Shown here one piece after another: positions 10,006 to 60,267 of a stretch of DNA of 64,000 nucleotides (position 1 is its first letter; every line of letters starts with the position of its first letter). Origin of the DNA: an uncultured Dehalococcoidia bacterium (GTDB lineage: Bacteria; Chloroflexota; Dehalococcoidia; Lucifugimonadales; Lucifugimonadaceae); assembly GCA_958295935.1 (NCBI GenBank), contig OY282385.1, positions 1,736,001 to 1,800,000 of the forward strand, in the 5' to 3' direction. Both the position numbers and the translations under genes were made by a program. The notes beneath the pieces are model-generated. The model had not been told where the DNA came from. It saw nothing but the letters and a program-made list of their open reading frames with translations, and ran no database searches.

Positions 10006-11802
10006 TCAGACAGCGCACTCACCCTCGCCGCGCTCCAGCTTGTACAAGACGGTCTTGCCCCAGTCCATGTAGCTCTCGATGTGCTCGCGATCCAGCGGCC
10101 CCACCTCTTCCTTGTAAGGTCGGAACATTTTCTCGAAAGGCGCGACTCCCACCCGGTCGATGAACTTGGCGAAAGGCTCTTGCGATTCACGGTTCTCCTG
10201 GTAGTAGTCCACGATCGCGTTCAGCGCCCGGGGCGCGAATCGCGCCGGCACCCGAGCCCTGACGCGCTGGCCCACTCGAACGTCTCCGTTCTCGTAGGTA
10301 CCGCCCAGGAATAGCTCGTAGGCCGGTACCTGTCCGCCCTTGCCCTTCATCACAGCGCCGTGGAACCCGATGTCGGCGATATGGTGCTGGCCGCATGAGT
10401 TCGGGCACCCGCTGGCCTTTATGTGAATCTCGCGTACAAGGGGGTCATCCATGTTGAGAGCGTCGACCGCCTCGCCCAGGGCTTTGTTGAGTCCCATGGA
10501 TGAGGTGATCCCCAGCTTGCAGGAATCGGTACCGGGACACGTGACGATATCTCGTATCGTTTCGCTCCCGGGCTCGGCCAGCCCCAACTCCTTGAGTCGG
10601 AGGTACACGTCATACAGCGCTTGGTCTCGAACCCACCGGTAGACGAGATTTTGCTGTTGGTCGATGCGCGCCCGTCCGCCCGCGAACTGCCTCGCGATCT
10701 CGCCTAGTGGAGACCATTGCTCGGCGTAGATGTCGCCCCGTTCCACCCGCACGTACACCAAGTTGAAGCCGGCTTGGCGCTGAGGGCTGGTGTTCTCTTT
10801 CTTCCAGAGGGCGTATTCATCGTCTCCGGAGGGTTCGGGCGTGAAGTCGCTTGGCGGCCCCGGCGCGTCCAATTCCTCTTCCTCGATGAACAGCAGCGCG
10901 TCGAGGTCGATAGTCTTCTTGGCCCACTCGCCTTCGAGCTCCTGCTCGACCATGCGCCGGAACTTTTCTATGCCCTCACGCGCGATGGTGAACTTGATTC
11001 GAGCCTTCATAAGGCTCTTACGTTCTTCGGTCGAGCGGTTGAAGATTCTGAGGCAGGCCTCGGCGGTCTTTAGATATTCCTCCACGGGAACGAACTCGTA
11101 GAGCGTGTCGGCCATGCGAGGCATGATCGACAAACCTCCCCCGACCACTATCTTGAAGCCCCGGCGGCCCTCCCGGACGCGTGCCACGAAACCGACGTCA
11201 TGGATAGCGGTGATGGCTTTGTCTTGTTCGGATCCCGAAAAGGCGGTCTTGACCTTGCGGGGCATGTTCTGGGTAGTGGCGTGGCGGAGGAAGTAACGAG
11301 CGTAAGCGGCCGCGTAGGGGGTCACGTCGAACACCTCATCGCGAGACACTCCGGCGTCTGGCGGCGCCACTACGTTCCTGACCGTATTGCCGCAGGCTTC
11401 GCGAGTGGTCAGGCCGGCATCGCCAATCAGGCGAAGCGCCTCCGGCGTGTCAGACAGCAACACGTGGTGGTACTGGACGTTCTCACGTGTGGTCAGGTGC
11501 CCCTTCTTCAGCGGCGCGAATCGGTCGGAGAACTGGCCTAGTGCGTCCATCTGATGGGCGGTCAGCCCCCCAAAGGGAACCTTCACCCTGACCATCTGCC
11601 GGTCGGGCTGCCGCTGCCCGTAGATACCCTGCCGAAGCCTGAAGCGAGTGAACTCCATGCTGTCCCACTCGCCGTTGCGGAAGCGCTGCGCCTCCTCCTC
11701 GAAACTCTCGATCTCCTCGGACAGGATATGAAGAACGCGCCTGCCCTCAGGATTGGGAGTCCACTTCTCTCCGCCCCTCGAACGTTTGGTTGTCGTCGTC
11801 AC
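10006..11802 (-). CDS. Ferredoxin-dependent nitrite/sulfite reductase (siroheme, 4Fe-4S)
   Basis: A 598-residue assimilatory reductase of the NirA/Sir family, reducing nitrite to ammonia or sulfite to sulfide with six electrons. It has the two-fold repeat of ferredoxin-like half-domains (near 60-130 and 330-400) and four cluster/siroheme cysteines: Cys422 and Cys428 in TCPGTDSC, Cys466 and Cys470 in GCPNSC. The GTG at 11802 has GGGAGG 5 bases upstream and is preferred over an ATG 48 codons earlier, whose extra residues look untranslated. Which substrate it uses cannot be decided from motifs alone. No nitrate reductase or APS/PAPS reductase is nearby. Confidence 0.88.
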   Translation of the reverse strand: MTTTTKRSRGGEKWTPNPEGRRVLHILSEEIESFEEEAQRFRNGEWDSMEFTRFRLRQGIYGQRQPDRQMVRVKVPFGGLTAHQMDALGQFSDRFAPLKKGHLTTRENVQYHHVLLSDTPEALRLIGDAGLTTREACGNTVRNVVAPPDAGVSRDEVFDVTPYAAAYARYFLRHATTQNMPRKVKTAFSGSEQDKAITAIHDVGFVARVREGRRGFKIVVGGGLSIMPRMADTLYEFVPVEEYLKTAEACLRIFNRSTEERKSLMKARIKFTIAREGIEKFRRMVEQELEGEWAKKTIDLDALLFIEEEELDAPGPPSDFTPEPSGDDEYALWKKENTSPQRQAGFNLVYVRVERGDIYAEQWSPLGEIARQFAGGRARIDQQQNLVYRWVRDQALYDVYLRLKELGLAEPGSETIRDIVTCPGTDSCKLGITSSMGLNKALGEAVDALNMDDPLVREIHIKASGCPNSCGQHHIADIGFHGAVMKGKGGQVPAYELFLGGTYENGDVRVGQRVRARVPARFAPRALNAIVDYYQENRESQEPFAKFIDRVGVAPFEKMFRPYKEEVGPLDREHIESYMDWGKTVLYKLERGEGECAV

Positions 11803-12288
11803 GCTTGCCTCCCGGCCATGTCCTTCATCCTTAGCATCTCGGCAATGCTGGTTACCGGTTGAGGGGTTGTCCTTCCGCCGGCTCGGTGAATGAAGAGCCC
11901 CGCTGCGAAGTACTTGGTGCGGGGTCGACTCTCTCGTGTTTGACAAGACCCCGCCCTATGGCCCACGTATGGACGCAAGTTTCCTAGAGATTGCGTCGCG
12001 GTGAAGTCTACCAATGTAGCCAGCACAGCGTCAAAGTGAATGACAAGCCTGTCCGCAACTCATCTGTCCCGCTCTCTGACGACGTGCAAAGCGCAGCATG
12101 GGGGATTCTAGCTATGGAAATGGCGCCGGCTAGAAGCGAGCTGGGAAGGTCTTGGCGGGATATCGCCGGCGGCCAATAGTAGATAACCAAAGGCTCATCA
12201 GTCACAGGCCGTAGATGCTGCTTTATACTGTAATTGACATTGGGAGCGGTCCCCTCACACACGCTACGGCGAAAACGGGCAAAAACAT
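11803..12288. other. Divergent intergenic region, reductase / Cache-repeat gene
   Basis: No gene is supported. AT-rich promoter-like sequence is found at about 12218-12242 (TTTATACTGTAATTGACA), readable as a -10 on either strand and as a TTGACA -35 on the plus strand. No good partner element is seen at the usual spacing. Confidence 0.35.
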
Positions 12289-14466
12289 ATGAGTCACATC
12301 TTGAAGCATCCAGTCAGTCTGGCCCTCGGCATCATTGCGGTCGCAATGGCCGTGGCCGCCTTGGTCGTCTCACTGATCGCAATCAGCGATAACGATACAG
12401 CGAGGCCCGCTGACGCCTTGGCGAGCGCTTCCAGACTCCACCAGCCCGGGGTTTACACCAAGGCCTTTGTTGAACAGGCCATTGAGCGCTACGACTCCGA
12501 GGGGCGCGGCGGCGCCATCTCCTACTACAACACCAAGGAAAGCATGAGCGGCGACTGGTACGTCTTCATCATCGACGAGGCCGGCAAAATCGTCTCGCAC
12601 GCTGCTCGACCGGAGCGAATCGGCCTCAGCTTGGACAACCTGGTAGACGTGACCGGCTACAGCTACGGCTTAGACTTTGCAGATACCACAGAGAACGGCA
12701 GCTGGGTTAAATATGCCTACCTGAACCCAGCGAACGGACACTACGAGAACAAGCATTCTTGGGTAGTGAAGCGCGACGGACTCATATTCGGTTCGGGATG
12801 GTACGAGAGGTCTACCGACTCCCTCCTGCCGTCCAAGACGGAAGAGCCGGAAGCGTATACCAAGGCCTTTGTCGAGCGGGCGCTCCGCCGATACACCGCA
12901 CAGGGACGGGACGCAACCTTTTCCTACTACAACTCGATGGAAAGCGTGGACGGGGACTGGTACCTCTTCATCATCGACGAGAACGACAAGATGGTGGTGC
13001 ACGCCACCGTGCCGGACAACATAGGACAGGATATGAAAGGTCCTCTGGGGACGGACAGCACGGGGTACGACTTCGGCTCGGAGATGCTGACGGCCACGGA
13101 GGATGGCAAGTGGGTCAGCTACGTATACATAAACCCAGCCAGGGGTCAGGAGGGCAAGAAGCATTCTTGGGTAGTAAAGCGCGACGGTCTCATATTCGCT
13201 TCGGGGTGGTACGAGACGTCTACCGACGCGCCTACCGACGCGCCCACCGACGCCTTGCCGCCTCCCAGGACGCAAGAGCCGGGCGAGTACACCAAGTCCT
13301 TCGTCGAGCAGGCGGTCCGCCGATACGCCGCACAGGGACGGGACGCGACCTTTTCCTACTACAACTCGATGGAAAGCGTGGACGGGGACTGGTACCTCTT
13401 CATCATCGACGAGAACGACAAGATGGTGGTGCACGCCACCGTGCCGGACAACATAGGACAGGATATGAAAGGTCCTCTGGGGACGGACAGCGCGGGGTAC
13501 GACTTCGGCTCGGAGATGCTGACGGCCACGGAGGATGGCAAGTGGGTCAGCTACGTATACATAAACCCAGCCAGGGGTCAGGAAGGCAAGAAGCACTCGT
13601 GGGTGGTGCGTCGCGACGGTCTCATATTTGGTTCCGGATGGTACGAGAGGTCTACCGATTCCTCGCCGCCTGCCAGGACGCAAGAGCCGGGAGCGTACAC
13701 CAAGTCCTTTGTCGAGCAGGGGCTCCGCCGCTACACCTCGGAGGGCCGGGACGCGGCCTTTTCCTACTACAACTCGATGGAGAGCGTGGACGGGCAGTGG
13801 TACCTCTTCGTCTTCGAGGACGGCAAGTTGGTGGTGCACGCCACGGTGCCCGAGAACATAGGGGCGGATCTGAGAGGTCCTCTGGGCACGGACAGTGCGG
13901 GCTACGACTTCGGCTCGGAGATGCTGACGGCCACGGAGGATGGCAAGTGGGTCAGCTACGTGTACATAAACCCTGTCAGCGGTCAGGAGGGCAAGAAGCA
14001 CTCGTGGGTGGTGCGTCGCGACGGTCTCATATTCGGTTCCGGATGGTACGAGATGCCGACCGACGCTTCGCCGCCTTCCAGGACGCATGAGCTGGGCGAA
14101 TACACCAAGTACTTTGTTCAGCAGGCGGTTCGCCGATACACCTCAGAGGGCCGGGACGCGGCCTTTTCCTACTACAACTCGATGGAGAGCGTGGACGGGG
14201 ACTGGTACATCTTCGTCGTCGACGAGGACGACAAGTTGGCGGTGCACGCCACGGTGCCCGAAAACATAGGGCAGGATTTGAGAGGTCCTCTGGGCACGGA
14301 CAGTGCGGGGTACGACTTCGGCTCGGAGATGCTGACGGCTACGGAGGATGGCAAGTGGGTCAGCTACGTATACATAAACCCTTCCAGCGGTCAGGAGGGC
14401 AAGAAGCACTCGTGGGTGGTTCGTCGCGACGGTCTCATATTTGGTTCGGGATGGTACGAGAACTGA
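12289..14466 (+). CDS. Membrane-anchored protein with five tandem Cache-like sensor repeats
   Basis: A 725-residue protein. An uncleaved signal anchor at about 9-32 is followed by five copies of a domain of about 115 residues, starting at residues 56, 190, 334, 470 and 605. Each copy reads YTK.FV...RRY...GR, then SYYNSMESVDG.WY.F..., a VHATVPENIG strand, GYDFG, and KWVSYVY.NP...G.....HSWVV.RDGL.FGSGWYE. This matches the ligand-binding Cache (PAS-like) domains normally found singly in chemoreceptors and histidine kinases. Here no kinase, HAMP or methyl-accepting part follows. Linkers are Ser/Thr/Pro-rich (one has repeated TDAP). It likely sits outside the cell and binds small ligands, perhaps handing them to a partner, but no function is proven. 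The first copy is the most divergent. Confidence 0.7.
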   Translation: MSHILKHPVSLALGIIAVAMAVAALVVSLIAISDNDTARPADALASASRLHQPGVYTKAFVEQAIERYDSEGRGGAISYYNTKESMSGDWYVFIIDEAGKIVSHAARPERIGLSLDNLVDVTGYSYGLDFADTTENGSWVKYAYLNPANGHYENKHSWVVKRDGLIFGSGWYERSTDSLLPSKTEEPEAYTKAFVERALRRYTAQGRDATFSYYNSMESVDGDWYLFIIDENDKMVVHATVPDNIGQDMKGPLGTDSTGYDFGSEMLTATEDGKWVSYVYINPARGQEGKKHSWVVKRDGLIFASGWYETSTDAPTDAPTDALPPPRTQEPGEYTKSFVEQAVRRYAAQGRDATFSYYNSMESVDGDWYLFIIDENDKMVVHATVPDNIGQDMKGPLGTDSAGYDFGSEMLTATEDGKWVSYVYINPARGQEGKKHSWVVRRDGLIFGSGWYERSTDSSPPARTQEPGAYTKSFVEQGLRRYTSEGRDAAFSYYNSMESVDGQWYLFVFEDGKLVVHATVPENIGADLRGPLGTDSAGYDFGSEMLTATEDGKWVSYVYINPVSGQEGKKHSWVVRRDGLIFGSGWYEMPTDASPPSRTHELGEYTKYFVQQAVRRYTSEGRDAAFSYYNSMESVDGDWYIFVVDEDDKLAVHATVPENIGQDLRGPLGTDSAGYDFGSEMLTATEDGKWVSYVYINPSSGQEGKKHSWVVRRDGLIFGSGWYEN
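12454..14460 (+). repeat. Five tandem coding repeats of about 402-432 bp
   Basis: Repeat units start at 12454, 12856, 13288, 13696 and 14101, giving spacings of 402, 432, 408 and 405 bases. Units 2 and 3 share long identical stretches (for example about 12915-13160 against 13347-13592), showing recent duplication or gene conversion. Unit 3 is lengthened by a threefold TDAP linker in front of it. Confidence 0.8.
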
Positions 14467-14800
14467 TTTCGTAAACTCCTGTCGGACGGTCTAGGTTACA
14501 AATAGATCCGGGCCCAAAGCGGTCTGGCAACCCTGACGTGCGAAATCCGTCTAGCGGCGAGACAAGAGAGTGTCTGGGAACGTTTTTCTCGGTCGGAGAC
14601 CTTTGCCTGATCATCCGAGGTATCTAACCGCATCGCTCGTTCACACTCATGCCTTGCCAGTGCAAGGACGGGCTTTGAACTTCCTCCTCAAGGGGAAAGC
14701 GGCTTATTGGATATTCTCTAGGCAAGAGACTGGGTTGCGTTGGCGACCCGATAGCCGCACTATAGCGCACGACAAAACCGACCCGGAACGGAATGCACCC

Positions 14801-15715
14801 TTGACAAGCATCGATGGATCTCTTGACGGCATCCACTTCATGCTGCCGACGCCCTTTTCCCAAGAAGGCGGTGAAGTGGATACTAAGCCGTTACCCCGCC
14901 TCCTCGACGCAGCGGCCGCGGCCGGCTGCCGGGGCGTAGTGTGCCTCGGCGTTATGGGAGAAGCGCATCGCCTCACCGACGCCGAACGGTCGCGCGTTCT
15001 TGAAGCGACGACCGGAGCGGTCGGAGGGCTGACTGTAACCGTCGGGGTAAGCGCCGAGAGCGAGCAGGTGGCGGCGCAGCGTGCCGAGGAAGCAGAACGG
15101 GCCGGGGCCACTGCGATAATGGCTTCACCTGCCAGGTTGGCCAGACCAAATCCCCAGTCCACCTTCTCTTACTACGCCGCGATTCAGGAGGCCATAGACA
15201 TCCCTATCGTGGTCCAAGACCTGCCGGAGCAGACCGGAGTTCACATGGATCCGGCGCTCATAGCGCGCATCAACAGTGAGCTGCCCGGAGCGCGATACCT
15301 GAAACTAGAAGACCCTCCCACACCTCCCAAGGTGACCCGTGTGCTGGCCATGACCGGCGACCGCATGGGCATATTTGGCGGTATGGGAGGCGGCTTCCTG
15401 TTCGAGGAGTTGCAGCGAGGCGCGGTGGGTACCATGACCGGTTTCGCATACCCTGAAGTGCTGGTCGCGGTGCACCGCAAACACGTCTCGGGGGACGTGG
15501 AAGGCGCCAGGAGCCTCTTCTACCAATGGCTGCCGCTGATCCGATACGAGAACCAGCAAGGTATAGGGCTATCCATCAGGAAACACATCATGACGCGCCG
15601 AGGATTCTTGGACTCCCCCGCGGTGCGGCGCCCGACTCCTACCATTGATGACGCCACGAAAGCCGAACTGGATGACATTCTGGGCGCGCTTGACCTCGAT
15701 GTTTCGGACTTGTGA
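14801..15715 (+). CDS. Dihydrodipicolinate synthase (DapA) family aldolase/lyase
   Basis: A 304-residue TIM-barrel class I aldolase of the DapA/NanA family, cleaving or condensing pyruvate-containing acids. FMLPTPF near the start, GVMGEAHRLT in place of the usual GTTGE, and the Schiff-base lysine in RYLKLED are visible. The catalytic Tyr motif (YNxP.RTG in most members) reads QDLPEQTG, so the usual tyrosine is missing. This argues against lysine biosynthesis and for a catabolic relative. The TTG at 14801 gives the family's normal length and has GGAACGGA upstream; the frame stays open back to 14570 but the extra 77 residues match nothing in the family. The stop overlaps the start of the next gene. 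Confidence 0.8.
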   Translation: MTSIDGSLDGIHFMLPTPFSQEGGEVDTKPLPRLLDAAAAAGCRGVVCLGVMGEAHRLTDAERSRVLEATTGAVGGLTVTVGVSAESEQVAAQRAEEAERAGATAIMASPARLARPNPQSTFSYYAAIQEAIDIPIVVQDLPEQTGVHMDPALIARINSELPGARYLKLEDPPTPPKVTRVLAMTGDRMGIFGGMGGGFLFEELQRGAVGTMTGFAYPEVLVAVHRKHVSGDVEGARSLFYQWLPLIRYENQQGIGLSIRKHIMTRRGFLDSPAVRRPTPTIDDATKAELDDILGALDLDVSDL

Positions 15716-40844: not shown

Positions 40845-41047
40845 GTCCCTGGGCTACGACAACGACAATTGGGGCCGCCTTCTGCCTCTGCTCTGCCGTC
40901 GTCATATCGGTATCCGCTTTCGTCGGATGGGCGGGCTGTTGGATTGCGAAGAATCTGCGCGGTTGTTAAGGTGCAACGGTCCCGGGGTGATTTTTGGCCT
41001 CGGCAGTGCACTCTGTTCGGCTGTGCCGTATCGGGGAGGTATTTCTG

Positions 41048-42952
41048 ATGTATACGAAGCGATATTCTTTGATGGCGGTATGGTTGCTTTCCGTCGTCGT
41101 CTTGGTTGCCGTGGCATGTGGGGGATCGGCTCCCGCGGAGAAGGTTGTGGAGACGGTGATCGTTGAGAGGGTGGTGCCTGGGGAGACGGTTGTGGAGACG
41201 GTTGTCGTTGAGCGGGTGGTGCCTGGGAGCACGGTCGTGGAGACGGTTGTCGTTGAGAGAGTGGTGCCTGGGGAGACGGTTGTGGAGACGGTTGTCGTTG
41301 AGCGGGTGGTGCCTGGGGACACGGTTGTGGACAAGGTTGTGGAGACTGTAATTGTCGAGAAGCAGGTAGTCGCTACGGTTATCGTTCCGCGCGAAAAGCT
41401 GGTTGTTGCGACTCCAACTCCCGTCGGGCAGGTACCTGAGGCGGGGGGAACGATCAGATGGGCGTTGTCGAACAACGTCTCTACGCTGGACGTGCTCAAG
41501 ACGACGTCGCAGCCTGAGATAGGCGCTCTGCACAGCCAGGAGCGTCTGTTTGATTTCGACTCGGACCTTGTTCCGCGGCCCACTCTGGTGGAAACGTGGT
41601 CGACCACTACCGACGGCCTCACGTGGACGTTCAAGCTGCGGGAGGGGATTACCTTCAACGGGCCGGTTGAGGGACGTCCGTTCACTTCGGAACATGCCAT
41701 GGGGTCTTGGCGAAGGTGGATCCAGCGCGACAACTTTGGGAAGATTCTCAACGGGTTCATCGAATCCATAGAGACGCCCGACGACCTGACCTTCGTGGTG
41801 ACTCTAAATGAGCCGACAGGATTGCTCTTGGACGGCTTTGCTCGTATCGGGGGCTACTCACCGTTCATGATGCCCCCCGAGATGTACGACGTGGCCCCGG
41901 CGGATGCGCCTGGAAACGGGGACATGGATACATTCGGCGGCACCGGCCCGTACCAGTTGACCCTGTGGCGTCCTGGAGACCGTCTGCTATTCGTCAAGTG
42001 GTCGGACTACAAGTCTCCGTCTGCGCCATCCTCCTATCTGTCCGGTAGGAAACACGCTTACGCAGACGTGCTCGAGGCGGTCGTGGTGCCTGAGGAGGCT
42101 TCTCGTATCGCCGCCCTGGAGACGGGGCAGGTGGATTGGATCGGGCCAGTGTCTGGGGATCAGAAGGCGCGGCTTCAGGCGAATCCCGCGCTGAACGTCT
42201 TCGTCGACAGAAGCGGCGCGGTGCGGATCGGGGCGTGGCCGAATCACCTGAAGGGGCCGTTCAGCGATGCCCGGGTGAGGCGTGCGCTCCTGATGGCTTT
42301 TCCAAAGGACGATGCTCTGCTCGCGACCAGCGGAGACGCTGACCTGCACCGGCAGTGCGGATCGCTCATGATCTGCGAGACCCGGTGGGGCGGCATCCGC
42401 ACGCCCGGCGATGAGGTGTACTACAACCCGCCGGACCTCGAAGGAGCGAAGCGGCTGATAGCGGACGCTGGTTACACGGGGGCAACGGTAACGCTGCTCA
42501 CCCGAACCGGTTCGGCGCCATCGGCTCTTGTCACGCGGGAGGTGGCCGAGGACCTTGGATTCGACGTCGATTACCAGCACGTTGACGCTGCGACCTACTC
42601 GGAGAGGCGGGCTGACCCGGACCGGTTCGACCTGTTCTTTACGGGCGGGCCAGTTTCATGGGGCGGTATCAGTCCGTTGCTGAACAGCACTTTGGCGAAA
42701 GATGCTTACTGGAACAAGTACCAGGATCCATCGGGAAACTTCTCGCGTATGCTCGCCGAATTCGCCCGAGCGTCCAGGGAACGGCAGGACGAACTGATCG
42801 TGGAGATGCAGAAGCAGTTTTATGAAGACTTGCAGTACATCCCGTTCGGCGAGGTGCTGTCACTCTATGCCCAGAGCAAGAAGCTGCGCGGTGTGGAGAT
42901 ACGGCTGATCGGCACCCACAGCAGTTTCGTGAACGCCTGGAAGGAGAGGTAG
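41048..42952 (+). CDS. Peptide/nickel-type ABC transporter substrate-binding lipoprotein with repeat stalk
   Basis: A 634-residue family 5 extracellular solute-binding protein. A signal peptide ends in the lipobox VAVAC (Cys24). Residues 33-92 are four 15-residue repeats of the form VVETVVVERVVPGET, followed by more Val/Glu-rich sequence to about 120 and a short PTP linker. The binding domain starts at about 131 (EAGGTIRWALSNNVSTLD). It carries GLTWTFKLREGITF, family hallmark, and a normal C-terminus. The repeats probably form an extended stalk that lifts the domain from the membrane. The ATG at 41048 has GGGAGGT upstream. The ligand is unknown; oligopeptides, glycosides or sugars are all bound by this family. 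Confidence 0.9.
   Translation: MYTKRYSLMAVWLLSVVVLVAVACGGSAPAEKVVETVIVERVVPGETVVETVVVERVVPGSTVVETVVVERVVPGETVVETVVVERVVPGDTVVDKVVETVIVEKQVVATVIVPREKLVVATPTPVGQVPEAGGTIRWALSNNVSTLDVLKTTSQPEIGALHSQERLFDFDSDLVPRPTLVETWSTTTDGLTWTFKLREGITFNGPVEGRPFTSEHAMGSWRRWIQRDNFGKILNGFIESIETPDDLTFVVTLNEPTGLLLDGFARIGGYSPFMMPPEMYDVAPADAPGNGDMDTFGGTGPYQLTLWRPGDRLLFVKWSDYKSPSAPSSYLSGRKHAYADVLEAVVVPEEASRIAALETGQVDWIGPVSGDQKARLQANPALNVFVDRSGAVRIGAWPNHLKGPFSDARVRRALLMAFPKDDALLATSGDADLHRQCGSLMICETRWGGIRTPGDEVYYNPPDLEGAKRLIADAGYTGATVTLLTRTGSAPSALVTREVAEDLGFDVDYQHVDAATYSERRADPDRFDLFFTGGPVSWGGISPLLNSTLAKDAYWNKYQDPSGNFSRMLAEFARASRERQDELIVEMQKQFYEDLQYIPFGEVLSLYAQSKKLRGVEIRLIGTHSSFVNAWKER
41144..41323 (+). repeat. Four 45-bp coding repeats in the binding-protein stalk
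   Basis: Units start at 41144, 41189, 41234 and 41279, each encoding 15 residues. Units 2 and 4 share nearly all bases through GACGGTTGTCGTTGAGCGGG, which points to duplication of a two-unit block or gene conversion. Confidence 0.85.
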
Positions 42953-54429: not shown

Positions 54430-57400
54430 TTATTGCACGTCAGACCTGGGCGTCACCGGTACTGCCGGACGATTCGCTGGGCCTGTGCCTACGGAGTTCA
54501 CTGCCCTGATTCTGAATCGGTATTCAGAGCCGTTCCTCAGATTGGGCACTTCATACGAGTTGGTGGCCCCGGTGCTTCCTGACATGTCATGCCATACTCG
54601 TGAGGGGTTGCCTGATTCTATTTGGCTGTACTGCCAGTGGGTGATTGTCAGGTAGTTCTGTGGGCGGTCCCACGTCAGAGTCACTTTCTCGTCGCCCGGA
54701 GTCGCAGCCAGTCCGGTTGGCGCTGCTGGTCTAGCGTTTGGCTGTGCGGGTGTTGCGGACGCGGTGGCGGGCGTTCCTGCGCCGACGCTGTTGACGGCTC
54801 TGACCTTGAACGAGTAGCTGGTTCCGTTCGTGAGGGATGAGAAGGTGTGGGACGTTCCGGTTACGTCGTTCCAGGATCCTGAGTCCCGTTGTACCTGGTA
54901 CTTGGCGATTGCGGCGCCGCCGTTGCTTGCCGGGGCCGTCCATGAGAGTTCGACCTGTCCGTCTCCGGGGGTTGCGGTGAAGCTGCCGGGGGTTCCGGGG
55001 ACGCCTGCGGGTGTTGCGGACGCGGTGGCGGGCGTTCCTGCGCCGACGCTGTTTACGGCTCTTACCTTGAACGAGTAGCTGGTTCCGTTCGTCAGCGATG
55101 AGACGGTGTGTGACGTTCCGGTTACGTCGTTCCAGGATCCTGAATCCCGTTGTACCTGGTACTTGGCGATTGCGGCGCCGTTGTTCGCCGGGGCCGTCCA
55201 CGAGAGTTCGACCTGCCCGTCTCCGGGGGTTGCGGTGAAGCTGCCGGGGGTTCCTGGGACGCCTACGGGTGTTGCGGAAACGGTGGCGGGCGTTCCTGCG
55301 CCGACGCTGTTTACGGCTCTTACCTTGAACGAGTAGCTGGTTCCGTTCGTCAGCGATGAGACGGTGTGCGCCGTGGTCGTCCCCACGTCGTTCCAGGATC
55401 CTGAGTCCAGTTGGATCTGATACTTGGCGATTGCGGCGCCGCCGTTGCTTGCCGGGGCCGTCCATGAGAGTTCGACCTGTCCGTCTCCGGGAGTTGCGGT
55501 GAAGCTGCCGGGGGTTCCGGGCACGGCGCTGTCCGTCGTTGCGCTGGGCTCGTTGGACCACGCGCCGTTGCCCACGCTGTTCACCGCCCGCAGGCGGTAC
55601 GTGTACGCCGTTGCCGGCGCGAGGCCCGTGTCCGAGTAGCTGGTTGCGCCTGCCGCGATGCTCGTGGATATGTCCGCGTAGATCCCGGAGCCGGTCTTGC
55701 GCTGGAGCGTGTAGCTGCTGATGGCCGCGCCGTTGTTCGCCGGGGCCGTCCATGAGAGTTCGACCTGTCCGTCTCCGGGGGTTGCGGTGAAGCTGCCGGG
55801 GGTTCCGGGGACGCCTGCGGGTGTTGCGGACGCGGTGGCGGGCGTTCCTGCGCCGACGCTGTTGACGGCTCTTACCTTGAACGAGTAGCTGGTTCCGTTC
55901 GTCAGCGATGAGACGGTGTGTGACGTTCCGGTTACGTCGTTCCAGGATCCTGAATCCCGTTGTACCTGGTACTTGGCGATTGCGGCGCCGTTGTTCGCCG
56001 GGGCCGTCCACGAGAGTTCGACCTGCCCGTCTCCGGGGGTTGCGGTGAAGCTGCCGGGGGTTCCTGGGACGCCTGCGGGCGTTGCGGACGCGGTGGCGGG
56101 CGTTCCTGCGCCGACGCTGTTTACGGCTCTTACCTTGAACGAGTAGCTGGTTCCGTTCGTCAGCGATGAGACGGTGTGTGACGTTCCGGTTACGTCGTTC
56201 CAGGATCCTGAGTCCTGTTGGACCTGATACTTGGAGATTGCGGCGCCGTTGCTTGCCGGGGCCGTCCATGAGAGTTCGACCTGCCCGTCTCCGGGGGTTG
56301 CGGTGAAGCTGCCGGGGGTTCCGGGGACGCCTGCGGGGGTTGCGGACGCGCTGGCGGGCGTTCCTGCGCCGACGCTGTTGACGGCTCTTACCTTGAACGA
56401 GTAGCTGGTTCCGTTCGTGAGGGATGAGACGGTGTGCGCCGTGGTTGTCCCTACGTCATTCCAGGATCCTGAGTCCTGTTGGACCTGATACTTGATGATT
56501 TCGGCGCCGCCGTTGCTTGCCGGGGCCGTCCATGAGAGTTCGACCTGTCCGTCTCCGGGGGTTGCGGTGAAGCTGCCGGGGGATCCGGGGACTCCTACGG
56601 GCGTTGCGGAAGCGGTGGCGGGCGTTCCTGGGCCGACGCTGTTGACGGCTCTTACCTTGAACGAGTAGCTGGTTCCGTTCGTCAGCGATGAGACGGTGTG
56701 GGACGTGGTTGTCCCCACGTCGTTCCAGGATCCTGAGTCCTGTTGGACCTGATACTTGTCGATTGCGGCGCCGTTGTTCGCCGGAGCCGTCCATGAGAGT
56801 TCGACCTGTCCGTCTCCGGGGGTTGCGGTGAAGCTGCCGGGAGTTCCGGGGACGGCTGCGGGGGTTGCGGAAGCGGTGGCGGCCGTTCCTGCGCCGACGC
56901 TGTTGACGGCTCTGACCTTGAACGAGTAGGTGTTTCCGTTCGTGAGCGATGAGACGGTGTGGGACGTGGTTGTCCCTACGTCGTTCCAGGAGCCTGAGTC
57001 CCGTTGTACCTGATACTTGGCGATTGCGGCGCCGTTGCTCGCCGGGGCCGTCCATGAGAGTTCGACCTGTCCGTCTCCGGGGGTTGCGGTGAAGCTGCCG
57101 GGGGTTCCGGGGACGGCTGCGGGGGTTGCGGAAGCGGTGGCGGCCGTTCCTGCGCCGACGCTGTTGACGGCTCTGACCTTGAACGAGTAGCTGGTTCCGT
57201 TCGTGAGGGATGAGACGGTGTGTGACGTTCCGGTTACGTCATTCCAGGATCCTGAGTCCCGTTGTACTTGGTACTTGTCGATTGCGGCGCCGTTGCTCGC
57301 CGGGGCCGTCCATGAGAGTTCGACCTGTCCGTCTCCGGGGGTTGCGGTGAGGCTGCCGGGAGTTCCGGGGACGGCTGCGGGTGTTGCGGACGCGGTGGCG

Positions 57401-60267
57401 GCGGTTCCTGCGCCGACGCTGTTGACGGCTCTTACCTTGAACGAGTAGCTGGTTCCGTTCGTGAGGGATGAGACGGTGTGTGACGTTCCGGTTACGTCAT
57501 TCCAGGATCCTGAGTCCCGTTGTACCTGGTACTTGTCGATTGCGGCGCCGCCGTTGTTCGCCGGAGCCGTCCATGAGAGTTCGACCTGTCGGTCTCCGGG
57601 GGTTGCGGTGAGGCTGCCGGGAGTTCCGGGGACGGCTGCGGGTGTTGCGGACGCGGTGGCGGGCGTTCCTGCGCCGACGCTGTTGACGGCTCTTACCTTG
57701 AACGAGTAGCTGGTTCCGTTCGTGAGGGATGAGACGGTGTGTGACGTTCCCGTTACGTCGTTCCAGGAGCCTGAGTCCTGTTGTATCTGATACTTGGCAA
57801 TTGCGGCGCCGCCGTTGTTCGCCGGAGCCGTCCATGAGAGTTCGACCTGTCGGTCTCCGGGGGTTGCGGTGAAGCTGCCGGGGGTTCCGGGGACGGCTGC
57901 GGGTGTTGCGGACGCGGTGGCGGGCGTTCCTGCGCCGACGCTGTTGACGGCTCTTACCTTGAACGAGTAGCTGGTTCCGTTCGTCAGCGATGAGACGGTG
58001 TGGGACGTTCCCGTTACGTCATTCCAGGATCCTGAGTCCTGTTGGACCTGATACTTGGCAATTGCGGCGCCGCCGTTGTTCGCCGGAGCCGTCCATGAGA
58101 GTTCGACCTGTCCGTCTCCGGGGGTTGCGGAGAAGCTGCCGGGAGTTCCTGGGACGCCTGCGGGCGTTGCGGAAGCGGTGGCGGGCGTTCCTGCGCCGAC
58201 GCTGTTGACGGCTCTGACCTTGAACGAGTAGCTGGTTCCGTTCGTGAGGGATGAGACGGTGTGGGACGTTCCGGTTACGTCGTTCCAGGAGCCTGAGTCC
58301 TGTTGGACCTGATACTTGTCGATTGCGGCGCCGTTGTTCGCCGGAGCCGTCCATGAGAGTTCGACCTGTCCGTCTCCGGGGGTTGCGGTGAAGCTGCCGG
58401 GGGTTCCGGGGACGCCTGCGGGCGTTGCGGAAGCGGTGGCGGCGGTTCCTGGGCCGACGCTGTTTACGGCTCTTACCTTGAACGAGTAGGTGTTTCCGTT
58501 CGTCAGCGATGAGACGGTGTGCGCCGTGGTCGTACCTACGTTATTCCAGGATCCTTCTGATCCCTGTTGGACCTGATAGTTGGTGATTTCGGCGCCGCCG
58601 TTGCTTGCCGGGGCCTTCCATGAGAGTTCGACCTGTCGGTCTCCGGGGGTTGCGGTGAAGCTGCCGGGGGTTCCGGGGACTCCTACGGGGGTTGCGGAAG
58701 CGGTGGCGGCGGTTCCTGGGCCGACGCTGTTTACGGCTCTTACCTTGAATGAGTAGGTGTTTCCGTTCGTGAGGGATGAGACGGTGTGCGCCGTGGTTGT
58801 CCCTACGTCGTTCCAGGAGCCTTCTGAGCCCTGTTGTACCTGGTAGTTGGTGATTTCGGCGCCGCCGTTGCTTGCCGGGGCCGTCCATGAGAGAGCGACC
58901 TGTCTGTCTCCGGAGGTTGCGGTGAGGCTGCCCGGGGTTCCGGGGACGGCTGCGGGTGTTGCGGAAGCGGTGGCGGCGGTTCCTGGGCCGACGCTGTTTA
59001 CGGCTCTTACCTTGAACGAGTAGGTGTTTCCGTTCGTCAGCGATGAGACGGTGTGCGCCGTAGTCGTCCCTACATTATTCCAGGAGCCTTCTGATCCCTG
59101 TTGTACCTGGTAGTTGGTGATTTCGGCGCCGCCGTTGCTTGACGGGGCCGTCCATGAGAGATCGACCTGTCCGTCTCCGGAGGTTGCGGTGAAGCTGCCG
59201 GGGGCATCGGGGGCTACTGCGGGTGTTGCGGAAGCGCTGGCGGGCGTTCCTGGGCCGACGCTGTTTACGGCTCTTACCTTGAACGAGTAGGTGTTTCCGT
59301 TCGTGAGGGACGGGACGGTGTGCGCAGTAGTCGTCCCTACATTATTCCAGGAGCCTTCTGAGCCTTGTTGTACCTGGTAGTTGGTGATTTCGGCGCCGCC
59401 GTTGCTTGCCGGGGCCGTCCATGAGAGGTCGACCTTCCGGTCTCCGGGGGTTGCGGTGAAGCTGTCGGGGGCATCGGGGGCTCTGAGCGCGCTTGGGGGC
59501 GGCGCTGGGGGGCCTACAGGCGGCGGAGGAGGAGGAGGTGGTGGGGGCGGCGGTTCGGGGTCGTCCGTGGGCTCGTCGTCCTCAGGGGGGGGTTGAGGCG
59601 TGGGCGTAGGAGTAGGAGTGGGTGTCGGCGTGGGCGTAGGCGTAGAAGTCGGCGTAGGCGTGGGCGTGGACGTAGGAGTAGGCGTAGGAATAGGAGTGGG
59701 TCTAGGCGTGGCAGTAGGCGTAGGCGTAGGAATGGCCGTGGGCGTGGGCGTGGGTGTAGGCGCCAGCGTAGGCGTTGGTGCGGGCGTTGGCGCGGGTGTA
59801 TCAGATGCGGCAGACGTACCAAGTTGGAGTGTGGGCGTAGGCGCGGGCACGGGCACAAGCGTAGGGGTAGCTTGCGGTACGGGTGTTGGCGTGGCTTGCG
59901 GTACTGGCGTAGGGGTGGGCTGCGGCGGCGCCGTCGTTGGCGGGGCTCTCGGCGTAGGCGTGGCCTGCACGGTAGGCATGGGTGAGGCTTGTGCGGTAGG
60001 CGCGGGAATGAGGGTAGGCGCGGGCGCGGGTGTAGGCGTGGCTTGGGGTGTAGGCGTAGGTGCGGCCGGCGGCGGTCGTTCCCTATCGGGATTCTCGGCC
60101 GGTTGGGTCGCCACAATGGGAGTAGGCTCGTTCTGAGCGGGGGATTGCCCAGCGTCGGCGGTTACGACGACTACGGCGATCGTCGCGGTAGCCGCCAAAG
60201 GGACTATTGTGCCAATAATCCCTGAGGATACCCCTCCGCTGCCCGCTGCTCCCTGCCCCCCTAGCAT
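54430..60267 (-). CDS. Membrane-anchored surface protein, Pro/Thr stalk and 19 FN3 domains
   Basis: A 1945-residue protein. An N-terminal signal anchor at about 16-37 is followed by a low-complexity region to about 260 built of TPTP, TPAP and PPPP runs, then 19 fibronectin type III domains of about 86 residues. Most begin [21 protein letters not shown] and contain [22 protein letters not shown]. The first four carry a longer [15 protein letters not shown] loop. Domain 15 ([13 protein letters not shown], then a [16 protein letters not shown] strand) and the last domain ([17 protein letters not shown]) are divergent. No enzyme domain, LPXTG or other C-terminal anchor is seen. It probably works as an elongated adhesin or spacer. 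A small membrane-protein gene lies 4 bases upstream. Confidence 0.88.
54736..59483 (-). repeat. Tandem FN3-coding repeats of about 258 bp
   Basis: Eighteen near-identical units in a row (the 19th, at the left end, is diverged). Long stretches are shared base for base, which shows homogenisation by recombination. This region is prone to copy-number change and to assembly collapse, so the true number of units is uncertain. Confidence 0.85.
59590..60070. repeat. Low-complexity region encoding the Pro/Thr stalk
   Basis: Irregular short repeats of the GGCGTAGGCGTGGGCGTAG kind on the plus strand, coding for TPTP/TPAP on the minus strand. All frames are open here, so open frames on the plus strand in this stretch are not genes. 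Confidence 0.75.

Follow-up and report, generated by a model that had tools for sequence, protein, structure and literature searches.

Among the extracellular sensors of prokaryotes, Cache domains are described as the largest superfamily; the Cache models of 2016 were built solely from proteins having an output domain (PMC4822843). More than 90% of the members of the family are reported to be fused to signalling modules, and almost half of the haem-binding sCache domains are reported to stand alone (PMC12889525). In PscD, Tyr90, His103, Tyr143 and Lys156 are described as holding propionate, with Trp92, Trp145 and Phe126 alongside (PMC5062169). Outside the Cache superfamily, TRAP-type extracytoplasmic solute receptors are described as receptor proteins that work with a secondary transporter (PMC1839085). 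In open-licence PMC, papers on tandem or multiple Cache domains were found just for calcium channels and Vibrio chemotaxis, and no account was found of output-less bacterial proteins with several Cache domains, of a Cache receptor working with a secondary transporter, or of sponges, Chloroflexi and a Cache domain in one paper.

The window, which is the whole stretch of 64,000 nucleotides analysed here, encodes a protein in which five sCache_2 domains, with no output, would be strung on a membrane tether outside the cell. Each unit would bind a small carboxylate-containing molecule, and the array would capture this molecule and hand it over to transport instead of transducing a signal. We put at about one half the probability that this protein binds carboxylates multivalently outside the cell and is used for capture or transport, and not for signalling.

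Architecture of the window protein

The features of the window are collected in Table 1. The five units, each of about 120 aa, start at aa 56, 190, 334, 470 and 605 and are joined by linkers of 16 to 24 residues that are rich in Thr, Ser, Asp and Pro. Both sCache_2 (PF17200; E = 4.2e-34, 118.2 bits against a cut-off of 25) and dCache_2 (E = 4.4e-36, above its cut-off) matched the protein in five stretches, which, together with the Cache-fold model, bears out the five tandem Cache domains proposed in a sequence-only reading of this DNA. A dCache_1 identity was ruled out, as a PF02743 search of the window genome returned nothing at E ≤ 0.001. The one membrane anchor of that reading was also found: a single hydrophobic helix (aa 14 to 32, corresponding to aa 31 to 49 of the stop-to-stop frame, which opens 17 codons 5' of the ATG) precedes unit 1, and the Cache units are not flanked by two helices. 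The helix is likely an uncleaved signal anchor, a topology that would place the array outside the cell. The protein contains no cysteine and has neither a lipobox nor a CxxCH motif.

Table 1. Positions in the window of the Cache array gene, its parts, its neighbours and other repeat-containing features
Feature	Position	Strand	Basis or remark
Nitrite/sulphite reductase family, divergent upstream neighbour	10006..11946	-	No conserved link to the array
Five-unit Cache array protein	12289..14466	+	ORF, 725 aa, ATG start; five sCache_2/dCache_2 stretches
N-terminal membrane helix, aa 14-32	12328..12384	+	Hydropathy 2.84 over 19 residues
Cache unit 1, divergent copy, counterpart of L025 unit 1	12454..12807	+	Repeat comparison, tree
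Cache unit 2	12856..13215	+	Repeat comparison, pocket alignment, dN/dS
Longest linker, Thr/Asp/Pro-rich	13216..13287	+	pLDDT <50 at aa 312-329
12-bp repeat inside the longest linker	13220-13253	+	Tandem Repeats Finder
Cache unit 3	13288..13647	+	Structure model (modelled span 13273-13647)
Cache unit 4	13696..14052	+	Repeat comparison, dN/dS
Cache unit 5, last	14101..14460	+	Repeat comparison, dN/dS; one residue, then stop
DHDPS family, downstream neighbour	14570..15715	+	Association with the array not conserved
45-bp tandem repeat, 4.5 copies	41137-41340		Within ORF 40994-42952, family 5 solute-binding protein
1945-aa protein, 19 fibronectin type III repeats	54430-60267	-	261-bp DNA repeats, about 88% alike

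The C terminus (...GSGWYEN-stop) lies one residue beyond unit 5, so that the protein does end right behind its last copy, as had been noticed. The reported lack of a signalling module holds as well: no signalling output domain was among the Pfam matches of the protein, and visual inspection of the 360 bases 3' of the stop, in all three forward frames, revealed no recognisable remnant of a signalling domain. Loss of an output by a frameshift was rejected, because no such remnant was recognised downstream and no output was among the 25 of 30 matched Pfam families listed for the relatives. The array is the sole such locus found in a search of its 2.75-Mb genome.

Origin of the five units

At the DNA level, units 2 and 3 are 93.4% identical, units 4 and 5 are 92.2% identical, and the remaining pairs among units 2 to 5 share 86.7 to 90.6%; unit 1 shares 65 to 68% with every other unit. 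The Tandem Repeats Finder scores of the array, 1470 and 1974, are far from chance. The near identity of units 2 and 3 noted earlier is therefore real, but this pair is merely the extreme of a four-copy expansion. In a FastTree phylogeny of 103 units, window unit 1 was nearest to the first unit of L025, a protein with two units, and window units 2 to 5 formed one clade (0.976) that was nearest to unit 2 of L025 and L027. Because of this placement, the array most likely began with two units, the second of which gave rise to four in the window lineage. The dS values among units 2 to 5 range from 0.17 to 0.32, and the one-to-four amplification is recent. The base composition gave no signal of horizontal import, the G+C content being 0.599 for the gene and 0.602 for the window.

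Predicted fold and ligand pocket

An AlphaFold2 model of unit 3, made from 74 aligned units, had a mean pLDDT of 97.8 and a pTM of 0.91. Its best Foldseek matches were 4exo, 2qhk, TlpB, 4k08 and 5g4y, all of which are sCache chemoreceptor domains, and VIA-align gave Z scores of 17.4 with 4k08 (rmsd of 1.9; 121 of 125 residues aligned), 16.8 with 2qhk and 16.6 with 5g4y; absences from the results of these two programs were given no evidential weight. The structure prediction of one unit thus recovered a Cache fold and removed the concern that the fold might be another one. The full-length model contains five folded units (mean pLDDT of 83, pTM of 0.35, two linkers below 50) and depicts beads on a string, in which the units have no confident mutual arrangement. 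The fold and architecture of the protein are near certain.

When the unit profile was aligned to 5g4y and 4k08 with HMMER, the columns of the PscD carboxylate grip were occupied by Tyr, His, Tyr and Lys, and all four are kept in each of the five window units. Among 250 units of the family, the first Tyr is present in 242, His in 207, the second Tyr in 246 (a column biased for the seed unit of each array, as the pattern used to find relatives spanned it) and Lys in 246, with all four in 196. The residues that set the size of the pocket differ from those of PscD: Trp92 is replaced by Phe (227 of 250 family units), Phe126 by Gly (237 of 250) and Trp145 by Tyr. As read from the alignment, the family pocket is one in which the carboxylate grip is retained and the side-chain wall is opened. 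Because of these differences, the prediction stops at the class of ligand, and no compound can be named. Each window unit probably binds a small carboxylate-containing molecule. A nucleobase is also a possibility, given the permease link found elsewhere in the family, although the pocket favours a carboxylate. The dN/dS ratios across all ten pairs of window units (0.19 to 0.34) indicate purifying selection and copies that are not decaying. A multivalent ligand-binding surface protein, as the gene product had first been interpreted, fits the five intact pockets and the single membrane anchor, with binding, ligand and surface exposure all predicted.

Relatives without an output domain

When 84,980 species genomes were scanned with a pattern, 147 matches and 111 relatives emerged, and the best 80 of the 111 were taken, yielding 79 loci (L025 to L103). 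These loci hold 114 distinct Cache ORFs, 109 of them complete, and 47 of the 109 complete ORFs have two or more units (one unit in 62 ORFs, two in 15, three in 10, four in 7, five in 4, six in 10 and eight in 1). The output-less tandem form, which had been called unusual, is thereby confirmed, but it is no one-off. Among the best 80 of the 111 relatives, most are from Chloroflexota (Dehalococcoidia/SAR202 and Caldilineaceae), so the same architecture does recur in this phylum; the other labels are two of the Acidimicrobiia type, one Alphaproteobacteria and three that read just 'bacterium'. In samples of the class and the phylum, a unit was found at E ≤ 1e-8 in 47 of 393 genomes (14 of 226 genera) and in 36 of 400 genomes (11 of 225 genera), respectively. 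Pfam placed sCache_2 on 103 and dCache_2 on 94 of the 114 ORFs, and no signalling output was present among the 25 of 30 matched Pfam families listed for them, which speaks against homologues generally carrying an output that was lost here.

The Cache units are constant in the family, and the anchors vary among lipoprotein, transmembrane, collagen-like, Pro-rich, SLH and 5'-nucleotidase-fused types. A lipobox-like motif, by a loose pattern, occurs in 80 and collagen-like stretches in 7 of the 109 complete relatives. In L005, L009, L030, L082, L090 and L100, the Cache arrays stand on collagen-like Gly-X-Y stalks behind a lipobox. An Acidimicrobiia protein (L074:4489-7542) joins an SLH (cell-wall anchor) domain to six Cache units, two of which are 99% identical, and a protein of a Tepidiformaceae MAG (L086:2467-6897) is a fusion of a 5'-nucleotidase C-terminal domain with three Cache units and has a membrane helix at its C terminus. 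In the Caldilineaceae loci L063, L069, L079 and L083, four or five single-unit Cache lipoprotein genes lie head to tail, five being reached in L069 and L079; these rows are an amplification of genes instead of domains.

A four-unit branch linked to a permease

Among relatives of the same family, Cache genes were noticed next to genes for xanthine/uracil-type permeases (PF00860). In seven genomes of genus g2, which have 1 to 5 matches to PF00860 each, 9 of 27 such matches adjoin a Cache ORF. The association was followed in 19 regions from other genomes with four-unit ORFs, chosen by ORF length and profile match and blind to neighbours, and in 19 further regions, added so that all 41 places matching the branch profile at 1e-100 or better were covered (the 41 include L003 and L004, g2 loci whose permease had been observed before, and L116 accounts for two of them); G393 has a partial match, at the edge of a contig (3.8e-61), that was left unclassed. 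A xanthine/uracil-type permease ORF adjoins the array in 15 of 19 loci of the first set and 17 of 19 of the second, which makes 32 of 38 loci (L104 to L141) in ten families. Four of the six loci lacking it (L112, L113, L120 and L126) have a contig end near on the side where their relatives have the permease. The genuine exceptions, L122 and L137, are both from genome G310, whose third array, L139, is adjacent to a permease. Further four-unit arrays beside such a permease occur in L003, L004, L011 and L013, and members of a single-unit Cache branch lie directly downstream of a permease in L007, L012 and L015. Among the 79 comparison loci, such a permease is found at 4 (L060, L061, L080 and L092).

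From the number of PF00860 matches per g2 genome, we estimate that chance adjacency would be below about 0.5%. The 32 linked loci are related and hence not independent; their three orientations, namely, 20 convergent, 10 divergent and 2 same-strand pairs, are independent. Adjacency kept through changes of orientation is what functional linkage predicts. Since most linked arrays are convergent or divergent to the permease, no co-transcription is inferred.

In 35 four-unit ORFs of the branch, the four pocket residues are complete in units 2 and 3 of all 35 and in units 1 and 4 of none. The mean column identity is 81% for the central pair of the branch (11 sequences) versus 50% for the family set (74). 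The window array falls outside this branch in a separate clade (FastTree support of 0.998), and the profile of the two central units (A7) matches it at 3.4e-74 versus 6.6e-105 or better for branch members. The position of the sister branch beside a permease suggests a use in transport, which the sequence-only reading had not considered.

Two other features of the branch were observed. A C-terminal extension of the permease of about 140 aa (L105:2106-2543 and 14 others; alignment A6) matches HATPase_c_2 in 6 of its 15 members, with a best E value of 3.3e-4 and 20.4 bits against a cut-off of 27.4 for the member shown, and no relative of it was found in the PDB; from this weak match, it is possibly an RsbW/SpoIIAB-like regulatory domain. 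In L104 to L114, a Cys-containing N-terminal region ahead of unit 1 (FVLGF...GDC.EN...) is conserved across several families, and Pfam gave it no name in L104, the single member that was scanned.

Possible functions of the window array

No conserved neighbours of the window gene or of its closest relatives were found. Besides the adjoining genes of Table 1, the neighbours of the array include an S15 peptidase, and none of the window neighbours is conserved near the relatives, with the sole exception of one S15 near L049. Opp/Dpp ABC transporter genes occur near 11 to 12 of the 79 loci and, having no background rate, were not used as a link. Neither a PF00860 permease (E ≤ 0.001) nor a member of the permease-linked branch is present in the window genome, and the transport role of the window array is for this reason borrowed from the sister branch. 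For the window protein itself, the part that the data support is carboxylate binding by its five tethered units. We infer the outside orientation, the ligand class, the binding and the transport role of the window array; which transporter, if any, it serves in its own genome would be pure inference. A broader interpretation, which is possible but has the odds against it, is that the Cache array is a new type of extracytoplasmic receptor which, in place of a classical solute-binding protein, takes up the substrate outside the cell and feeds or gates a permease of the xanthine/uracil family. In logic, the family would then be a bacterial counterpart of the multi-Cache alpha2delta subunit of calcium channels. 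The core would be the permease-linked branch, with its two working pockets in the middle and a worn-out one on either side. The window array would be an offshoot that stands alone and was amplified to five working pockets, perhaps as an adaptation to life in or around marine sponges.

Alternatively, the ligand-bound array might signal through a second protein, by docking on a membrane sensor in the way that periplasmic binding proteins pair with two-component kinases. The Cache units are sensor domains by descent, and a hybrid histidine kinase lies near 4 of the 79 loci, with GAF, PAS, HisKA, HATPase, receiver and OmpR domains in L054 and proteins that cluster with it in L067, L073 and L080. 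However, neither the genes next to the window array nor the ten scanned neighbours of its close relatives include a kinase, and it is a permease, not a kinase, that is the best-conserved neighbour of the family, which makes signalling through such a partner unlikely.

The surroundings and habitats of the family bear on another possibility, that the repeats bind polymers of a host or a neighbouring cell like fibronectin-type repeats do, with the copy number tuning reach or avidity. The collagen-like, Pro-rich and SLH-linked anchors would suit such a role, as would the 19-repeat fibronectin type III protein encoded in the same window and the origin of several relatives. Five of the 62 source MAGs (MPML, MPMM, MPND, MPNM and MPNN) are listed in PMC5649159 as coming from symbionts of the sponge Aplysina aerophoba, and a further 16 have RHO, COS or APA bin codes that would fit the sponges of PMC8163846, a source that also describes fibronectin type III genes as enriched in sponge-associated MAGs. 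Conservation is centred, however, on the small-ligand pocket and not on the surface (YHYK in 5/5 window units and 196/250 overall), and binding to matrix polymers appears quite unlikely. A sponge specificity of the family was not upheld, with 5 MAGs being named sponge bins, 16 fitting by code and the other 41 untraced. Six sponge Chloroflexi genomes are described as lacking flagellar and chemotaxis genes (PMC6306507), which argues against a chemoreceptor role there.

It is improbable that the array is simply a membrane-bound store or sink for a metabolite, with no partner of its own: many sites on one anchor and the absence of a recognised partner gene in the window genome would be in keeping with a buffer or decoy, but very high copy numbers would be needed at micromolar affinities. 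That the protein is a drifting relic of an output-stripped sensor, with copies from neutral tandem duplication as the recent amplification might imply, is very improbable given the dN/dS values, the intact pockets and the wide recurrence of output-less arrays in Chloroflexota.

Capture of a carboxylate for transport remains the preferred reading. A whole family whose members have as many as eight units but lack an output indicates that a Cache domain can also act as a plain binding module, and the permease pairing makes this role testable by ordinary uptake assays. The family is, in addition, a concrete gene set for asking how sponge-associated Chloroflexota take up dissolved organic matter.

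Comparison with known systems

The fold and the Tyr/His/Tyr/Lys set are common to the window units and to PscD (5g4y), Adeh_3718 (4k08) and the Vibrio parahaemolyticus protein 2qhk. The sCache_2 chemoreceptors, however, have one domain between two helices and a methyl-accepting output, whereas the window protein has five domains in series behind one helix and no output. The stand-alone sCache_heme proteins described in PMC12889525 are output-less like the window array, but they are single and bind haem; a haem Cache identity was ruled out, as the CxxCH motif is absent from the window protein and from all 114 relatives.

No TRAP-type receptor was among the Pfam matches of the window protein. 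TRAP-type solute receptors also differ in fold from Cache. The eukaryotic alpha2delta and CACHD1 proteins are extracellular, anchored multi-Cache proteins that have no kinase and are attached to a transport protein, and in both a VWA domain precedes the Cache domains. The window protein has no VWA family among its Pfam matches at E ≤ 1, the fold match of the unit to these proteins is much weaker (VIA-align Z of 9.5 for 7vfs and 9.8 for 9eq6), and no relationship beyond the common fold is demonstrated. By analogy, alpha2delta and CACHD1 would be the nearest idea to an output-less multi-Cache array.
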